64,000 bases of DNA from Erwinia billingiae Eb661 (GTDB lineage Bacteria > Pseudomonadota > Gammaproteobacteria > Enterobacterales > Enterobacteriaceae). The position numbers and the translations under genes were made by a program. Location of the stretch: NCBI RefSeq assembly GCF_000196615.1, contig NC_014306.1:620001-684000 (forward strand), written 5' to 3'. The notes beneath the pieces were generated by a model. It was not told the origin of the DNA and ran no database searches. It saw nothing but the letters and a program-made list of their open reading frames with translations. Shown in pieces: positions 29,197 to 34,635 of this stretch (positions within the stretch are counted from its first letter, which is position 1; the number at the start of each line of letters is the position of its first letter).

Positions 29197-29620
29197 ATGG
29201 GGTGCGGGAGGTGAAATCAATTGATGGCGTCATCGCAATGCCGTCTGAGGTGTAAAAGACCGAGCTGGTGAACTGGTAGACCTTGCCGCTGAGGTTGATA
29301 CTGACCCGGTTTCCCCATTTGTTGACCTTGGCATCCGCGGTATCCGCCGTCAGGAAGGGGGCAATATGGCCGAGTGCTTTTAGCGGCTCGGTTTTTAATT
29401 CCGCTGAAAGGTAGTAACGGTAGACATCTGACACCGTCGCGCCGCCCTGATACTCCGTAATATAAAGCCAGCTGTCCGGGCCGATCTGTTTCGCTGATAG
29501 CAATGCATCGTCATAAGGCGGGCCCATTGTGCGCTGATAGGCGAAATAGCCAAGGACTAATAGCAATAGGAGAAGCGTCAGGATTCGGTGCGTCCATTTA
29601 ATAACCGTGCTGGGTGACAT
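29195..29620 (-). CDS. Membrane-anchored protein, probable immunity to the toxin-44-like effector
   Basis: 141 residues of no family I recognise. One N-terminal hydrophobic anchor (RILTLLLLLLVLGYFAY, about 12-28) is followed by a soluble domain of about 110 residues that would face the periplasm. Its ATG lies 23 bases inside the end of the toxin gene, so the two are co-translated. Position right after a type VI cargo toxin, small size and membrane anchoring fit an immunity protein, and suggest that the toxin acts in the periplasm or at the envelope. That is inference; no conserved catalytic motif is seen. Confidence 0.6.
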   Translation of the reverse strand: MSPSTVIKWTHRILTLLLLLLVLGYFAYQRTMGPPYDDALLSAKQIGPDSWLYITEYQGGATVSDVYRYYLSAELKTEPLKALGHIAPFLTADTADAKVNKWGNRVSINLSGKVYQFTSSVFYTSDGIAMTPSIDFTSRTP

Positions 29621-29990
29621 AATCTATTCCTTGAATTATCCATCGCTGATCCAGAGGATCATCTCCATGGGGGGATTGGCCGTGCCAGTCTCCCCATTCA
29701 GGCTTGGTTGTTCCCGCCCGACTTTGCGCAAACCCTGCTCCCATTAACAATATCTCGGCAGGAATACCGGCGGTATAACCAGTCGCACCATAATTGAAAT
29801 TTCCAAAGTCAGCCCAAGCTCTGTTTCTTTGCTTGTAATCCCATGGCCCACGGTTTCTTACTTTGAGATAGAACCAGTAGTAAGTTGATGGTGTTGCCAT
29901 ATTTCGACTTGAACCACGACTTTTGGCTTCCATGATATTACGATAAATTAGACTAAAGCCCCCCGGGGGCATGATAGGTATTATAGCCAT
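29598..29990 (-). CDS. Toxin-44-like (Ntox44) type VI effector
   Basis: About 130 residues from ATG 29990, which has AGGGA 7 bases upstream; the frame also allows starts at 29996 or 30020, overlapping hcp. The pattern matches the polymorphic toxin 44 domain as I know it: PPGG near the start, then YYWFYLKVRNRGPWDYKQ, FGNFNYGATGYTAG, AGTTKPEWGDW and GDDPLDQRWIIQGIDY. The gene lies directly behind an orphan hcp and overlaps a membrane protein, the usual effector/immunity layout. Small effectors of this kind travel inside the Hcp tube. The biochemical activity is not asserted; one would test peptidoglycan or nucleic-acid cleavage. Confidence 0.72.
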   Translation of the reverse strand: MAIIPIMPPGGFSLIYRNIMEAKSRGSSRNMATPSTYYWFYLKVRNRGPWDYKQRNRAWADFGNFNYGATGYTAGIPAEILLMGAGFAQSRAGTTKPEWGDWHGQSPHGDDPLDQRWIIQGIDYVTQHGY

Positions 29991-30000
29991 CAGCATGTCC

Positions 30001-30492
30001 CTAAGCCGTTTTACGTTCATTCCATGAATCGGAAAAAATCAAATTGCCATCACAATGTTTCCATGTGATTTTTTCGTATCTTAATTCAATGTTTTCAATA
30101 TGGTTTTGATGTTGTGCGGCCGGATCTTTACAGTCATGCATAATCGGGGAAACTGAAACTACTTTCACATTTTCAAGTAGCATATTGAAGTATTCTGCTT
30201 CTTGCCCAGCATCATTGATTTTGTACCACTTCAATTCAGCAGATTTTAATGTTTGGCCTGAAGCTACCGCTTTGTACAGATAGGTAGATGAACTATCAAA
30301 TTCTTTTTCGAGGATAAAAGCGCCATGTATGCGATTTCCAGTGATTTTCCCTGTGTTATTATCCGTAGGGGTATAAACACGATGAGTAAAAGCATTTATC
30401 TCAATACTTCCTTCCCTGTAACGTACGTCCACAGAGCCTTTAATGTCTGCGCCACCATCGTCTTTCAGCCATAAGTAAGCTGGAATTGCCAT
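30001..30492 (-). CDS. hcp: Hcp family type VI secretion tube protein (orphan)
   Basis: 163 residues with the enterobacterial Hcp pattern: MAIPAYLWLKDDGGADIKGS, GNRIHGAFILEKEFDSSSTYLYKA, LKSAELKWYKINDAGQE and a C-terminus ending EKITWKHCDGN, FSDSWNERKTA. Hcp forms the hexameric rings of the T6SS tube and carries small effectors in its lumen. AAGGAG precedes the ATG by 7 bases. It is encoded away from the structural cluster at 56-64 kb and heads a three-gene cargo unit. Low GC compared with the flanking genes suggests acquisition. Confidence 0.92.
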   Translation of the reverse strand: MAIPAYLWLKDDGGADIKGSVDVRYREGSIEINAFTHRVYTPTDNNTGKITGNRIHGAFILEKEFDSSSTYLYKAVASGQTLKSAELKWYKINDAGQEAEYFNMLLENVKVVSVSPIMHDCKDPAAQHQNHIENIELRYEKITWKHCDGNLIFSDSWNERKTA

Positions 30493-31103
30493 TTAAAAAC
30501 TCCTTTTATAAACAATTCTCCTGAAGCTACCCTCGAAAAACTTTATGTTAATTGACTTGAATCAAGTTAAATGCGCTGAGCTATTAAAATGTTTGTAGGC
30601 ACCGTGATACCAAGTTCGTTAGTGGTTATTTTGTTTTGTTCAGATTTGTATATAAATTAAATTAATGTTAATTGTGTTATAAAAAATTCTTCCATAACAA
30701 ATATTTTTGGATGGTTGAAGTTATTGTTTTAACTTACTCTTAAAATGAATTAAATAATTTCACCATCATTTTTAATTTCAAGAATTTCTCGCTAAAAATG
30801 AAAGTCACTTTATCGGCTAGTTTAAGTCTTAATACTCGTGCGACATCATATTTAAGTTCGGTAGCTCTAGTTTTCCCGATAAGTGCAAGGCACGCTTTTC
30901 TCTTAACCTATTGACCCTCAATATTTTTTTGAAATAACTTCGGTTAAAGTACTCACCTCACTCAGTGATAAAAAAATCATAAATCTCCAGAAATTATACT
31001 GTGTTTATTTGCAGTTCTTCTGGCTCTGAAGGATGAAATGGAGGACGCTGGGCAGCGTATGCCTGTAAGGTCGATACCATCATCAGCTGTCAGGAAAAAG
31101 ATT
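30493..31103. other. AT-rich intergenic region between hcp and decayed prophage
   Basis: About 610 very AT-rich bases without a convincing gene. A near-perfect palindrome TTGACTTGA-A-TCAAGTTAA lies at 30552-30570, about 60 bases upstream of hcp, and could be part of its promoter or operator. The last 80 bases (from about 31025) read like the end of a phage lysis or tail gene in pieces (ALKDEMEDAGQRMPVRS), too short to name. Confidence 0.55.
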
Positions 31104-31548
31104 ATGAACAAGTAGCAGCCCTTACTTTACTTAGCGCTCTGAATAAGTCCATCCCTTACGTGGCTGACAACCCGGACCACTTGCCCTTGTTCGTAGACAG
31201 CGGTCAGCTGGTTGCAATGTTTGCTGCGTCCATGTCGTGGGGATAACGCTAGACGCTGAATGTGGTGATCACCGACTTCACCAGTGACCAGAACCTGCTG
31301 ATGGCCCAGTGCTCTTGTGGCTGCGGGAAAATCAGTCCGACCCGCTGCAGAACAGGGAGACGCGCGTAAAGCTGATTTCGTTTGCGGTAGATATTCTGGC
31401 TAATGACCGCGGCGACATCAGCAGGTATCTAAAGGTGACCGAACTCCTGAGAGCAACCGTTGATTGCAGTAAGGCCAGTATTGAAGCGGTGCTGGAACCG
31501 GACTTACCGGAGGAATACTGGACGGTGAAGTATGGCAGAACTGAATGA
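31104..31548 (+). pseudogene. Decayed P2-like tail completion protein R
   Basis: Frames joined across stops and shifts read NPDHLPLFVDSGQLVAMFAAS, then TLNVVITDFTSDQNLL, then LLWLRENQSDPLQNRETR, then FAVDILANDRGDIS. They align with P2 gpR (FIDSGQLVAT..., TLNLVITDF..., AWLREHQPDLL..., FEAEILDND...). Early stop codons (for example TAG in the fourth codon) and at least one frameshift disrupt it. The longest intact piece is 31309-31548, 79 codons. gpR caps the tail during assembly, and this copy cannot be functional. Confidence 0.8.
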
Positions 31549-31700
31549 AGTGGATGTCTGACTGACCGAGTTACTGTTGCAACTGGAACATGCGTCCCGG
31601 AAAAAGATGTAGCTAGAAGTGGTGCGCAATGTCCGAAGCATTCATCATACAAACATGACGTCACAGCGTGCACCCGACGGTAGTACATGAGAACTTAGGC
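31532..31700 (+). pseudogene. Decayed P2-like tail completion protein S (5' fragment)
   Basis: The ATG at 31532 overlaps the end of the R remnant, as S overlaps R in P2-type phages. The reading MAELNEVDV-stop-LTELLLQLEHASRKKM-stop-LEVVRNVRSIHH...APDGSTY follows P2 gpS (SELxxLxxRLxxLLxxLSPAxRRKM..., xxNPDGTPY). Two in-frame stops and a truncated 3' end show decay. The remnant stops where the two AT-rich cargo genes begin. Confidence 0.72.
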
Positions 31701-32000
31701 GCGTGACTGCCCGGGCAAAATCGGGGGTGCATAAAGCGTAAAATGTTTGTGAAACTCAAAACAGCAAAATACCATGAAATGAATGTTAAAAAAGATCAGG
31801 CAGAAATTTTTTCAACAAAAGATGTTTTTCAGATAGCTCGGAACCATCATTACGGTTTGAGATAAATGGTGAAAAAACGAGGAAAGTTAGTCAAGTACTC
31901 CGAACGCAGACTTTTAGGTTTTAGTTCCGGGGTGGTGGATCATATCAGATACCTCATGCTACATTATACTACCCTTTACAAATAAATTTTGAGGTCAGTC
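31701..32000. other. AT-rich spacer upstream of the DUF262-HEPN genes
   Basis: 300 bases that should hold the promoter of the two-gene module. TATACT at 31965-31970 is a fair -10 box with no clear -35. A 40-codon frame at 31743-31865 has no recognisable likeness and I do not call it a gene. Confidence 0.5.
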
Positions 32001-33086
32001 GTGGAAATTCAAGTCGAGCTTAAAGAAGCTAAAAGAGAGATAGTTAAAGATAGTTTTGATATGTCAATTGGTGAATTGACAAGAATATATGAAAGAGATG
32101 AACTAATTATAAACCCCGTTTATCAAAGATTATTTCGATGGGATGAGTCACAAAAGACACGTTTTATAGAGTCAATTCTCTTAGGTATTCCACTGCCACC
32201 TATATTTGTTTTTACCGATGAGAATGGACGATGGGAAGTAATCGATGGCCTGCAGAGGCTATCAACTATCTTTGAATTTGTAGGGTGTTTGAAGAAAGAT
32301 GATACTATAGCTCCTGCATTTATACCTTCCGGCACCCACCTTTTACCATCTTTAGACGGGATGAGTTGGAGTGATAATGACGACGCGAGAAAGACAATGC
32401 CACTCGCTGTTAAATTGGACTTTGAACGCTCACGTTTAAGAGTGGAAATATTAAAAAAAGAGAGTGATGAAAAGACAAAATATGAACTATTTGAACGTTT
32501 GAATACAGGCGGCTCAATTCTAACTGAACAAGAGGTTAGGAATTGTGTCATGATAATGTTAAATAAAGAATTGTTCGACTTATTCACACTGTTAAGTGAG
32601 CACCCTGAGTTTAAGCAAATAACTTTGCAAACTGAGAAGTCGATTTCAGAACAAAAGCCATTGGAGTTAACTCTAAGGTTTTTAGCTTATAGGTATTCCC
32701 CATTCGACAAAAGTACTGATATTAATGAATGGCTAAATACTATATCAAGAGCTATCGCAAGCGATCCGGATTACAACATAGAAAGAGAATCTGCAATATT
32801 TAAGCGAACTTTTGATCTTTTGGCTAGAAAAGTAGGTACTGACGCTTTTAAGAAATTTGATGGTCAAGTTTTTTCAAGAGGTTTTTTGATTTCGGCTTAT
32901 GAAGTTATAACTCACGGTGTTTCTAAAAATATCGACGTATTAGAAAGTGTAGATGATGGTTATTTAGTCGAAAAAATAAAAGAGCTATGGAGTAATGACG
33001 GTTTTACAAAGTATGCTCGTGCTGGTGTAAGTGGGCCAACAAGGCTAGTAAATACCCTTCCAAATGCGGAAGTTTGGATGCGCTGA
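32001..33086 (+). CDS. DUF262 (GmrS/SspE-type, ParB-like) protein of a two-gene module
   Basis: 361 residues from GTG 32001 with GAGG six bases upstream; a TTG at 31989 also opens the frame. The DUF262 core is clear: YQRLFRW at 41-47, IDGLQR at 81-86 (the DGQQR-like nucleotide-handling motif, with Leu for the usual Gln) and LNTGGSILTEQEVRN near 168. DUF262 proteins use NTP and serve in anti-phage systems such as GmrSD and SspE. Here the usual C-terminal DUF1524 HNH nuclease is absent, and a HEPN gene follows 1 base later. GC is far below the flanking chromosome. A defence role is inferred from family and location. Confidence 0.85.
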   Translation: MEIQVELKEAKREIVKDSFDMSIGELTRIYERDELIINPVYQRLFRWDESQKTRFIESILLGIPLPPIFVFTDENGRWEVIDGLQRLSTIFEFVGCLKKDDTIAPAFIPSGTHLLPSLDGMSWSDNDDARKTMPLAVKLDFERSRLRVEILKKESDEKTKYELFERLNTGGSILTEQEVRNCVMIMLNKELFDLFTLLSEHPEFKQITLQTEKSISEQKPLELTLRFLAYRYSPFDKSTDINEWLNTISRAIASDPDYNIERESAIFKRTFDLLARKVGTDAFKKFDGQVFSRGFLISAYEVITHGVSKNIDVLESVDDGYLVEKIKELWSNDGFTKYARAGVSGPTRLVNTLPNAEVWMR

Positions 33087-33087
33087 A

Positions 33088-33762
33088 ATGGAAATTAGAA
33101 CGGTTGATAAATTAGTTAGAGAATTATCTAATGAGCTATCATGGCGAACAAAGGAAATCTCTCACTTGAGAGTCGAAGCTAAAGCTAAAAATGGTAGCTT
33201 AAAAGATACGATTTTACGTTCGGGTGTGGCAATAACATATTGCCACTGGGAGGGTTTTATCAAAATAGCTACAGAGCTTTTTCTCAATTATCTAAATTAT
33301 CAAAAGATTTTGATTTCCGACCTTCAATTAGTTTATGTTACTCATGCAATGAAAAAAGAGATTCACTCTTTTTCTGAAACAAAAAGTGTTGATGCCTGTA
33401 TAACATTTTTGAATGCTCTTTTTGTGCGTCAAAGTTCAGTTGCGGAAATAAAACATGAGAACTACGTTGACACTCAATCAAACTTGAGTTCGACAGTATT
33501 TGACAATATCGCAAAATCAATCGGGATCGACACTACACCTTATAAAGATTACTACCCTTACATAGATGAGAACATTGTTAATGCTAGGAATGATATTGCT
33601 CATGGTCAAAAGTTGATGATTGATGAAAAGGTTTTTGACCAATTGGCCGATAAAGTTTCTAATTTATTAAGAATGTATAAGGATGATATAGAAAATATAG
33701 TGGCTTTGAAAAGTTATCTTCTTGTTTCTCATCAGAAAGTTGAACCGTCTAACACACAATAG
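33088..33762 (+). CDS. HEPN-domain protein, MAE_28990/MAE_18760-like (candidate RNase)
   Basis: 224 all-alpha residues. The HEPN catalytic motif RX4H is present as RNDIAHG (Arg167, His172), and an upstream YCHWEGFIKIA helix (51-61) is typical for the MAE_28990/MAE_18760 group. HEPN proteins with an intact RX4-6H motif are usually metal-independent RNases in toxin and abortive-infection systems. The start ATG follows the DUF262 stop by one base with no strong ribosome site of its own, so it is translationally coupled. I propose that it is the effector switched on by the DUF262 sensor. This is untested inference. Confidence 0.82.
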   Translation: MEIRTVDKLVRELSNELSWRTKEISHLRVEAKAKNGSLKDTILRSGVAITYCHWEGFIKIATELFLNYLNYQKILISDLQLVYVTHAMKKEIHSFSETKSVDACITFLNALFVRQSSVAEIKHENYVDTQSNLSSTVFDNIAKSIGIDTTPYKDYYPYIDENIVNARNDIAHGQKLMIDEKVFDQLADKVSNLLRMYKDDIENIVALKSYLLVSHQKVEPSNTQ

Positions 33763-33804
33763 CCACATCTTTAGTGTTTGTGTTTTTTATTTAATCATTA
33801 AGAC

Positions 33805-34367
33805 ATGAACACTAAACTCACCGAAATCATGTGCCTTATGACCTCTGAACTGCCCCGGGGCAGTCTCGGAAGTGGATAAGGATAAATAGCTGTTCCGGGT
33901 GATAACGGGCGACCCTGAAACCAACTGGATTAACTGGCTGAAATTACGCGCAGGTAATCCTGCACCTGGTGGAAACCTTCACGAGGTGAGCGGGTAGTGC
34001 TCCTGAGTATCTGGAAACCGCCTTCGGGCTGGCCGCCGTTTATTACGATGCTTTCCCACCACCTTCAAAATAAGAAGACGGCAGCGTGGCGGAGTACCCA
34101 GACGGCGACTGGCTTGGGTATGAACCTGCCACCAGGCGCTGGTTGATAAAAGGCATTAAGAGCGTGCTGATTGAAGCTTCGGGCTGCAAAGAGCTAAGAA
34201 CAGGCGCGTTCATAGTCACTACTGACCAGACGCAAATTAAGAGTGAGGTTGTCATCAATGGTGGCGTGACGCAAGGCGGCTCGATGTCTTCCTACGGCAT
34301 CGTGGCGGACGTGCGCACACATGATGGAGCTCAGAAAGGTAGCGCAAATACCGGAGGGCCGTGCTGA
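33805..34367 (+). pseudogene. Decayed P2-like baseplate spike protein V
   Basis: It opens MNTKLTEIMCLM, breaks in stops, then shows NWINWLKLRAG and, in another frame, CTWWKPSRGERVVLLS. These match P2 gpV (TDWLQWLTHRAG, TWWAPSVGEQVLIL). The 3' half is open (34086-34367): FPDGDWLGYEPATRRW-like start, then GGSMSSYGIVADVRTHDGAQ, matching gpV's C-terminal GGELSSNGKVLHTHKHPG. The histidine metal-binding tip is partly lost (VRTHDG for HTHKHPG). gpV is the membrane-piercing spike; this copy is dead. Confidence 0.78.
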
Positions 34368-34558: not shown

Positions 34559-34635
34559 TGGTGGCCCCAACTGGACTTGAACCAGTGACCAAGCGATTAT
34601 GAGTCGCGTGCTCTAACCAACTGAGCTATGGGGCC
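34559..34635 (-). tRNA. tRNA-Ile2 (anticodon CAU, lysidine type)
   Basis: 77 bases including encoded CCA. The cloverleaf is clear: acceptor GGCCCCA/TGGGGCC, D-arm AGCTCAGTTGGTTAGAGC, anticodon loop CTCATAA, T-arm GGTTCAAGTCC. The close match to E. coli ileX/ileY (GGCCCC... CGACTCATAATCG) marks it as the AUA-reading isoleucine tRNA, in which C34 becomes lysidine, and not an elongator Met tRNA. A decayed prophage lies on its 3' side, so it is a likely old integration site. Confidence 0.93.

Follow-up and report, generated by a model that had tools for sequence, protein, structure and literature searches.

A 64,000-nucleotide stretch of the Erwinia billingiae Eb661 genome (NC_014306.1, positions 620,001 to 684,000; hereafter the window, in whose own coordinates all positions are given) carries, within a decayed P2-like prophage, two adjacent plus-strand genes encoding a DUF262 protein and a HEPN protein. 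An earlier note, made from the letters alone, had read this pair as a candidate anti-phage system in which a GmrSD-like sensor works with a HEPN RNase in place of an HNH effector, and our analysis follows up that reading. The DUF262 gene, at 32001-33086, starts with GTG at 32001, ends with TGA at 33084-33086 and encodes 361 amino acids; GAGG stands at 31991-31994, six bases 5′ of the GTG. The HEPN gene, at 33088-33762, starts with ATG at 33088, has its stop at 33760-33762 and encodes 224 amino acids. A mechanical listing of open reading frames (ORFs) gives longer starts, at 31989 and 33064, respectively. One base separates the DUF262 stop from the HEPN start, and the pair is AT-rich, with a guanine-plus-cytosine content of 35.1% versus 56.5% for the window, so that both genes are intact, AT-rich and spaced as first described.

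In Pfam, the DUF262 protein matches PF03235 (GmrSD_N, E=4.8e-27) and no further family up to E=1, DUF1524 and HNH included; NCBIfam gave no DUF262 match. The protein contains the motifs YQRLFRW, IDGLQR and LNTGG, the second of which agrees with the (I/V)DGxQR signature of GmrSD-type DUF262 proteins, and PF03235 matches the genome at this locus only. The hallmark of the HEPN superfamily is an R-x4-6-H motif. The second protein carries it intact as RNDIAHG (R167, H172), together with a conserved E55, and matches PF18737 (HEPN_MAE_28990, 8.8e-29) and PF18735 (HEPN_RiboL-PSP, 7.6e-28); motif and profile matches together place it in the superfamily. Beyond HEPN families it has only weak non-HNH matches up to E=1, with no HNH or DUF1524 among them. 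Thus, a DUF262 protein lacking HNH does stand beside a HEPN protein with an intact motif, and the residue numbers given earlier (D82, R167 and H172) are correct. Public records name such products DUF262 domain-containing protein and MAE_28990/MAE_18760 family HEPN-like nuclease. We also modelled both proteins as single chains. The nearest folds of the DUF262 model (predicted local distance difference test score, pLDDT, 88.9) are BrxU, SspE, DndI and ParB. The best structural matches of the HEPN model are HEPN toxins and RNases, including a fold near the MntA-HepT toxin, with nothing at E<=0.001 in Foldseek. A profile search of solved structures returned three DUF262 sequences for the first gene and none for HEPN.

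That the pairing should recur in other genomes, as the earlier reading implied, is borne out. A profile made from DUF262 sequences only, some of them from known pairs (A1), yielded 80 genome loci, the best 80 of at least 322 confirmed DUF262 relatives in species genomes, and 78 viral-contig loci. A HEPN ORF, recognized by a second profile (A2), lies directly downstream in 142 of these 158 loci (76/80 genome, 66/78 viral). Of the 16 exceptions, seven are cut off by a contig edge no more than 200 bases past the DUF262 stop; at two (L159, L161), DUF262 is followed by a small protein with R-x4-H that scores below the HEPN profile threshold. At three more (L164-L166), an ATPase follows a DUF262 protein of the same extended family; L166, which we tested, is a Menshen locus (PADLOC NsnA, NsnB and NsnC). 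The HEPN profile test found no partner downstream of DUF262 at the remaining four (L045, L068, L082 and L088). Viral contigs selected by HEPN, which are mostly the same contigs as in the DUF262-selected set, have DUF262 upstream in 23/23, and each of the six plasmid records with a HEPN match has a DUF262 match alongside, one match crossing the record start. Within the host's family, PF18737 occurs in 5 of 149 genomes and DUF262 adjoins it in four (this genome, L010, L011 and L012); at the fifth (L013), where the PF18737 match is weak, no DUF262 lies within the 3.4 kb seen.

The relatives are spread widely. Record titles among the best 80 genome loci include Pseudomonadota, Actinomycetota, Bacteroidota, Cyanobacteria, Bacillota, Planctomycetota and others. 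Within the genus, the window HEPN is absent from the 36 other genomes searched (1/37 counting its own), which points to a gene acquired recently or only rarely. Complete E. coli genomes gave no match to the window DNA in ‘near’ mode. A scan of genome contigs with a single sequence found no relative, whereas the alignment-based repeat did; phage records gave no HEPN match and 23 DUF262 matches, all below 60% identity. Conjugative plasmids of E. coli and Klebsiella (L005, L006, L007) carry more distant DUF262 and HEPN pairs, and that of the IncX1 plasmid L007 sits between replication and transfer genes.

The two genes are also tightly coupled. A HEPN start is possible at <=30 nucleotides from the DUF262 stop in 140 of the 142 pairs. 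Distance matrices for 129 pairs (that of the window and those of 128 loci that remained once incomplete, short or identical ones had been removed) correlate at r=0.88, a value reached by 0 of 999 permutations, whose maximum was 0.13. As common descent by itself pushes such a correlation up, we take it to show co-inheritance and not contact. The pairing in 142/158 loci, the matrix correlation and the 23/23 HEPN-selected viral contigs lead us to reject the idea that the two are chance neighbours. E55, R167 and H172 are the sole invariant positions among 128 HEPN sequences with 22% mean column identity (alignment A4, 19 proteins plus 109 of 132 locus HEPNs, hand-chosen), and they are likewise kept in 129/129 of the paired set. 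In DUF262, D82, G83, Q85 and R86 are invariant in an 82-sequence alignment (A5, 13 proteins plus 69 of 132 locus proteins); the paired set keeps these four, along with P39, Q42, E57, F164, R166, N168 and R180, in 129/129, and R43 in 128.

The nearest relative of the locus is a viral contig, L094, which aligns to window positions 31031-33977 with 82% identity over 2958 bases and has the gene order gpR, gpS, DUF262, HEPN, gpV. The pair is also present on six more viral contigs (L095-L100), where DUF262 is 73% identical, and it sits between gpS and gpV in all four whose genes are listed (L095, L096, L097 and L099). In the window, the flanking phage genes are decayed, as the earlier note had seen. 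A remnant of P2-type gpR (tail completion) at 31059..31536 (+) is broken over three frames (31059-31124, 31124-31306 and 31303-31536 by tblastn with L094 gpR), and the ORF at 31309-31548 matches Pfam P2_Phage_GpR at E=1.6e-8. A gpS remnant at 31532..31982 (+) lies in two frames (tblastn of L094 and L096 gpS), as does a remnant of gpV (baseplate) at 33845..34361 (+), which L094 and L096 gpV match at 33845-33958, 33857-33982 and 34011-34361. These three broken genes are the only phage genes found in the window prophage, and five other L096 phage proteins had no window match at E<=1e-3; by position we take the five to be two baseplate proteins, a tail fibre protein, a lysozyme and a capsid protein. 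The earlier note had reasoned that open frames amid such decay imply selection. The ratios of nonsynonymous to synonymous substitution rates (dN/dS) against L094, 0.067 and 0.051 for the two genes, are low but bear this out only in part, for they average over both lineages and are no proof of selection since the prophage decayed.

In phage P2, the non-essential orf30 occupies the same place between gpS and gpV, and fun(Z) lies elsewhere, after gene G. The cargo site in the window is thus the gpS-gpV (P2 orf30) slot of a P2-like prophage, which makes exact what had been called a prophage cargo slot. The A-Q hotspot that Rousset et al. describe (PMC9122126) is a different site, and so is the second hotspot, which Vassallo et al. 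(PMC9519451) report together with fun. DNA of the L096 S-V region matches 824 E. coli records; we opened 12 prophages, hand-chosen from the 10 best of these and from 14 taken at even spacing. The slot was empty in four, held TIR genes in two, an AAA ATPase with DUF4435 in two (one with its S side rearranged) and a GmrSD-domain gene in one; two others held hypothetical proteins and the last DUF6216 with IS1. Defence-type genes therefore occupy the slot in 5/12 of the prophages inspected, counting the AAA and DUF4435 pair, which we take to be the PARIS architecture. Across the loci concerned (L174-L185, L095-L097, L099, L173:1368-2309), the P2 orf30 slot acts as a site where defence-type genes are carried as cargo. 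A tRNA-Met at 34559-34635 (-), 0.2 kb past the gpV remnant, may be a former integration site. Some 0.6 kb ahead of the prophage remnant lie a type VI secretion Hcp gene at 30001-30492 (-) and then, overlapping it, an Ntox44-type toxin gene at 29598-30020 (-).

We also surveyed the genes around the relatives. We sampled 28 of the 80 genome loci, and 27 of them yielded 106 ORFs of 200-900 amino acids; at E<=1e-30 these matched 28 PADLOC families, versus 0 of 36 window ORFs. The 25 of 28 families shown include type II/IIG and type I methyltransferases, REase_II, DpdF, AriA and PsyrT, each with 1-2 members; one match, to DndA/SspA, could come from an ordinary cysteine desulfurase. As the control is small (36 ORFs) and the members were not itemised, we make no claim of a defence island from these data.

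The earlier note had hinted that the pair was without precedent, and this part of its reading does not stand. The review PMC10952713 lists PD-T4-2 under both DUF262 and HEPN (PF18735), and Vassallo 2022 (PMC9519451) reports that T4 plaquing rises greatly when PD-T4-2 is deleted from ECOR65 and that PD-T4-2 protects K-12. A locus scored by PADLOC as PD-T4-2 (L172; PD-T4-2_A 6.3e-159, PD-T4-2_B 1.3e-62) consists of DUF262 and then a 167-amino-acid protein with RNRVAH, whose PF18735 match (E=0.0017) is below the Pfam cut-off. Adjacent DUF262 and small R-x4-H HEPN genes, in that order, are likewise what the window holds. However, the window DUF262 shares 27% identity with the L172 protein, the window HEPN has 224 amino acids versus 167, and no PADLOC family matches the window HEPN up to E=1. 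PD-T4-2_B is also absent from the 24 PADLOC families matched at E<=0.01 by the 128 HEPN relatives (0/128), and its matches number 0 in 149 genomes of the family and 1 in 274 of the class. We therefore rejected filing the pair as PD-T4-2, as its second component has no match. The table of a 2013 HEPN survey (Anantharaman et al., PMC3710099) gives Ribo L-PSP-HEPN as ‘operon with ParB’ and MAE_28990 as ‘in operon with a ParB nuclease and DNA methylase genes’; it is a computational survey that names DUF262 once in its text. Because PD-T4-2 and these ParB/HEPN operons precede it, the DUF262 and HEPN architecture is not new, and PD-T4-2 is the nearest tested system.

Other known systems fit less well. 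In PADLOC, the window DUF262 protein scores best with NsnA of Menshen (NsnA-NsnB-NsnC), itself a DUF262 protein (1.3e-57, against 3.7e-39, 132.8 bits, for PD-T4-2_A), but the partners at the Menshen locus L166 are a DUF3696/AAA ATPase and NsnC, whereas in the window the next gene is HEPN and then the gpV remnant. Filing as Menshen was rejected for the same lack of a matching second component. The pair shares the N-terminal DUF262 fold with GmrSD, BrxU, SspE and DndI; the first three carry DUF1524, according to PMC10952713, and the window pair does not. A split GmrSD that had lost its HNH gene was rejected, given a second gene that encodes HEPN with invariant catalytic residues. Among the open papers listed by our searches, most of them judged from the listing and with subscription papers and supplements outside the scope, we recognized no experimental study of this HEPN clade and found no characterized mechanism for the exact pair, as the earlier note had supposed. 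The window pair is probably a real defence module, and a variant that the PADLOC HEPN models do not cover.

Collectively, we favour, with a probability of about 0.7, a two-gene anti-phage module, carried on P2-like prophages, plasmids and chromosomes, in which DUF262 is the sensor and HEPN the RNase effector. The earlier interpretation is in this respect partly supported: a DUF262 protein without HNH beside a HEPN protein with its catalytic motif kept, a conserved pairing and a slot with defence-type genes all favour it, and its suggestion of novelty falls away. The review PMC10952713 ties DUF262 in GmrSD, BrxU and SspE to NTP (nucleoside triphosphate) binding or hydrolysis and modified-DNA recognition, and the 2013 survey describes most HEPN toxin domains as RNases (PMC3710099). 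In the simplest view, the DUF262 protein, a ParB/Srx-fold NTP-binding domain with a helical domain, would act as sensor and regulator, and in the resting cell a putative DUF262-HEPN complex would probably hold the HEPN site inactive. DUF262 with NTP might then read a phage signal, perhaps DNA that is foreign or modified, and an active HEPN dimer would be released or assembled, cutting RNA and stopping the infection, probably at the cell's cost.

If the pair were instead a toxin-antitoxin-like maintenance module, DUF262 would neutralise a HEPN toxin and the locus would persist by addiction, with defence absent or secondary. The tight coupling and co-inheritance, the HEPN fold close to the MntA-HepT toxin, the occurrence on plasmids and the persistence in a decayed prophage could all be accounted for in this way. 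A typical antitoxin is small, however, and here the DUF262 protein exceeds its partner in size and retains the full NTP-site motif. MntA-HepT and other HEPN toxins share the fold and the R-x4-H, but the window partner is DUF262 and not a nucleotidyltransferase. The HepT motif is RX4HXY, and in place of its tyrosine the window has Q174; in 117/129 of the paired set this residue is E, R, Q, D, N or K. A HepT-type toxin-antitoxin system was rejected on these two grounds. As PD-T4-2, of the same architecture, is moreover a demonstrated phage defence, we consider the maintenance module unlikely.

Type IV restriction-like action, in which DUF262 attacks phage DNA as an NTPase or nuclease and HEPN is a binding or assembly subunit and no RNase, appears distinctly improbable to us. 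BrxU, SspE and DndI are indeed the nearest solved folds, PMC3710099 terms the partner a ParB nuclease, and 1 of the 12 E. coli prophages has a GmrSD-domain gene in the same slot; yet the pair has no HNH or DUF1524 domain, and a purely structural subunit would not need the HEPN catalytic residues that we find invariant. That the locus is a relic, intact-looking but unexpressed in a decaying prophage and no longer working here, has broken gpR, gpS and gpV around it and the absence of HEPN from the 36 other genus genomes in its favour, and is very improbable in the face of two full-length genes with conserved motifs and low dN/dS.

With a DUF262 sensor and a HEPN RNase as our preferred reading, a broader idea can be offered tentatively, at somewhat short of even odds: that there is a large, phylum-crossing immune class in which DUF262, the NTP-gated DNA sensor of GmrSD type, drives a HEPN RNase and not a DNase, PD-T4-2 being one divergent branch and this clade another. 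In that case DUF262 would serve generally as a sensor to which different effectors can be coupled: HNH in GmrSD, an ATPase in Menshen and HEPN in the window pair. The ATPase partners at L164-L166 suggest such effector exchange behind a DUF262 sensor. The DUF262 family is widespread, with at least 322 relatives, yet PADLOC names only the DUF262 half of the pair, which is easy to clone. The gpS-gpV slot of P2-like prophages is a place to seek further defence genes. If our reading is true, DNA sensing would be tied to RNA cleavage, and what DUF262 does outside GmrSD-type nucleases could be tested directly.
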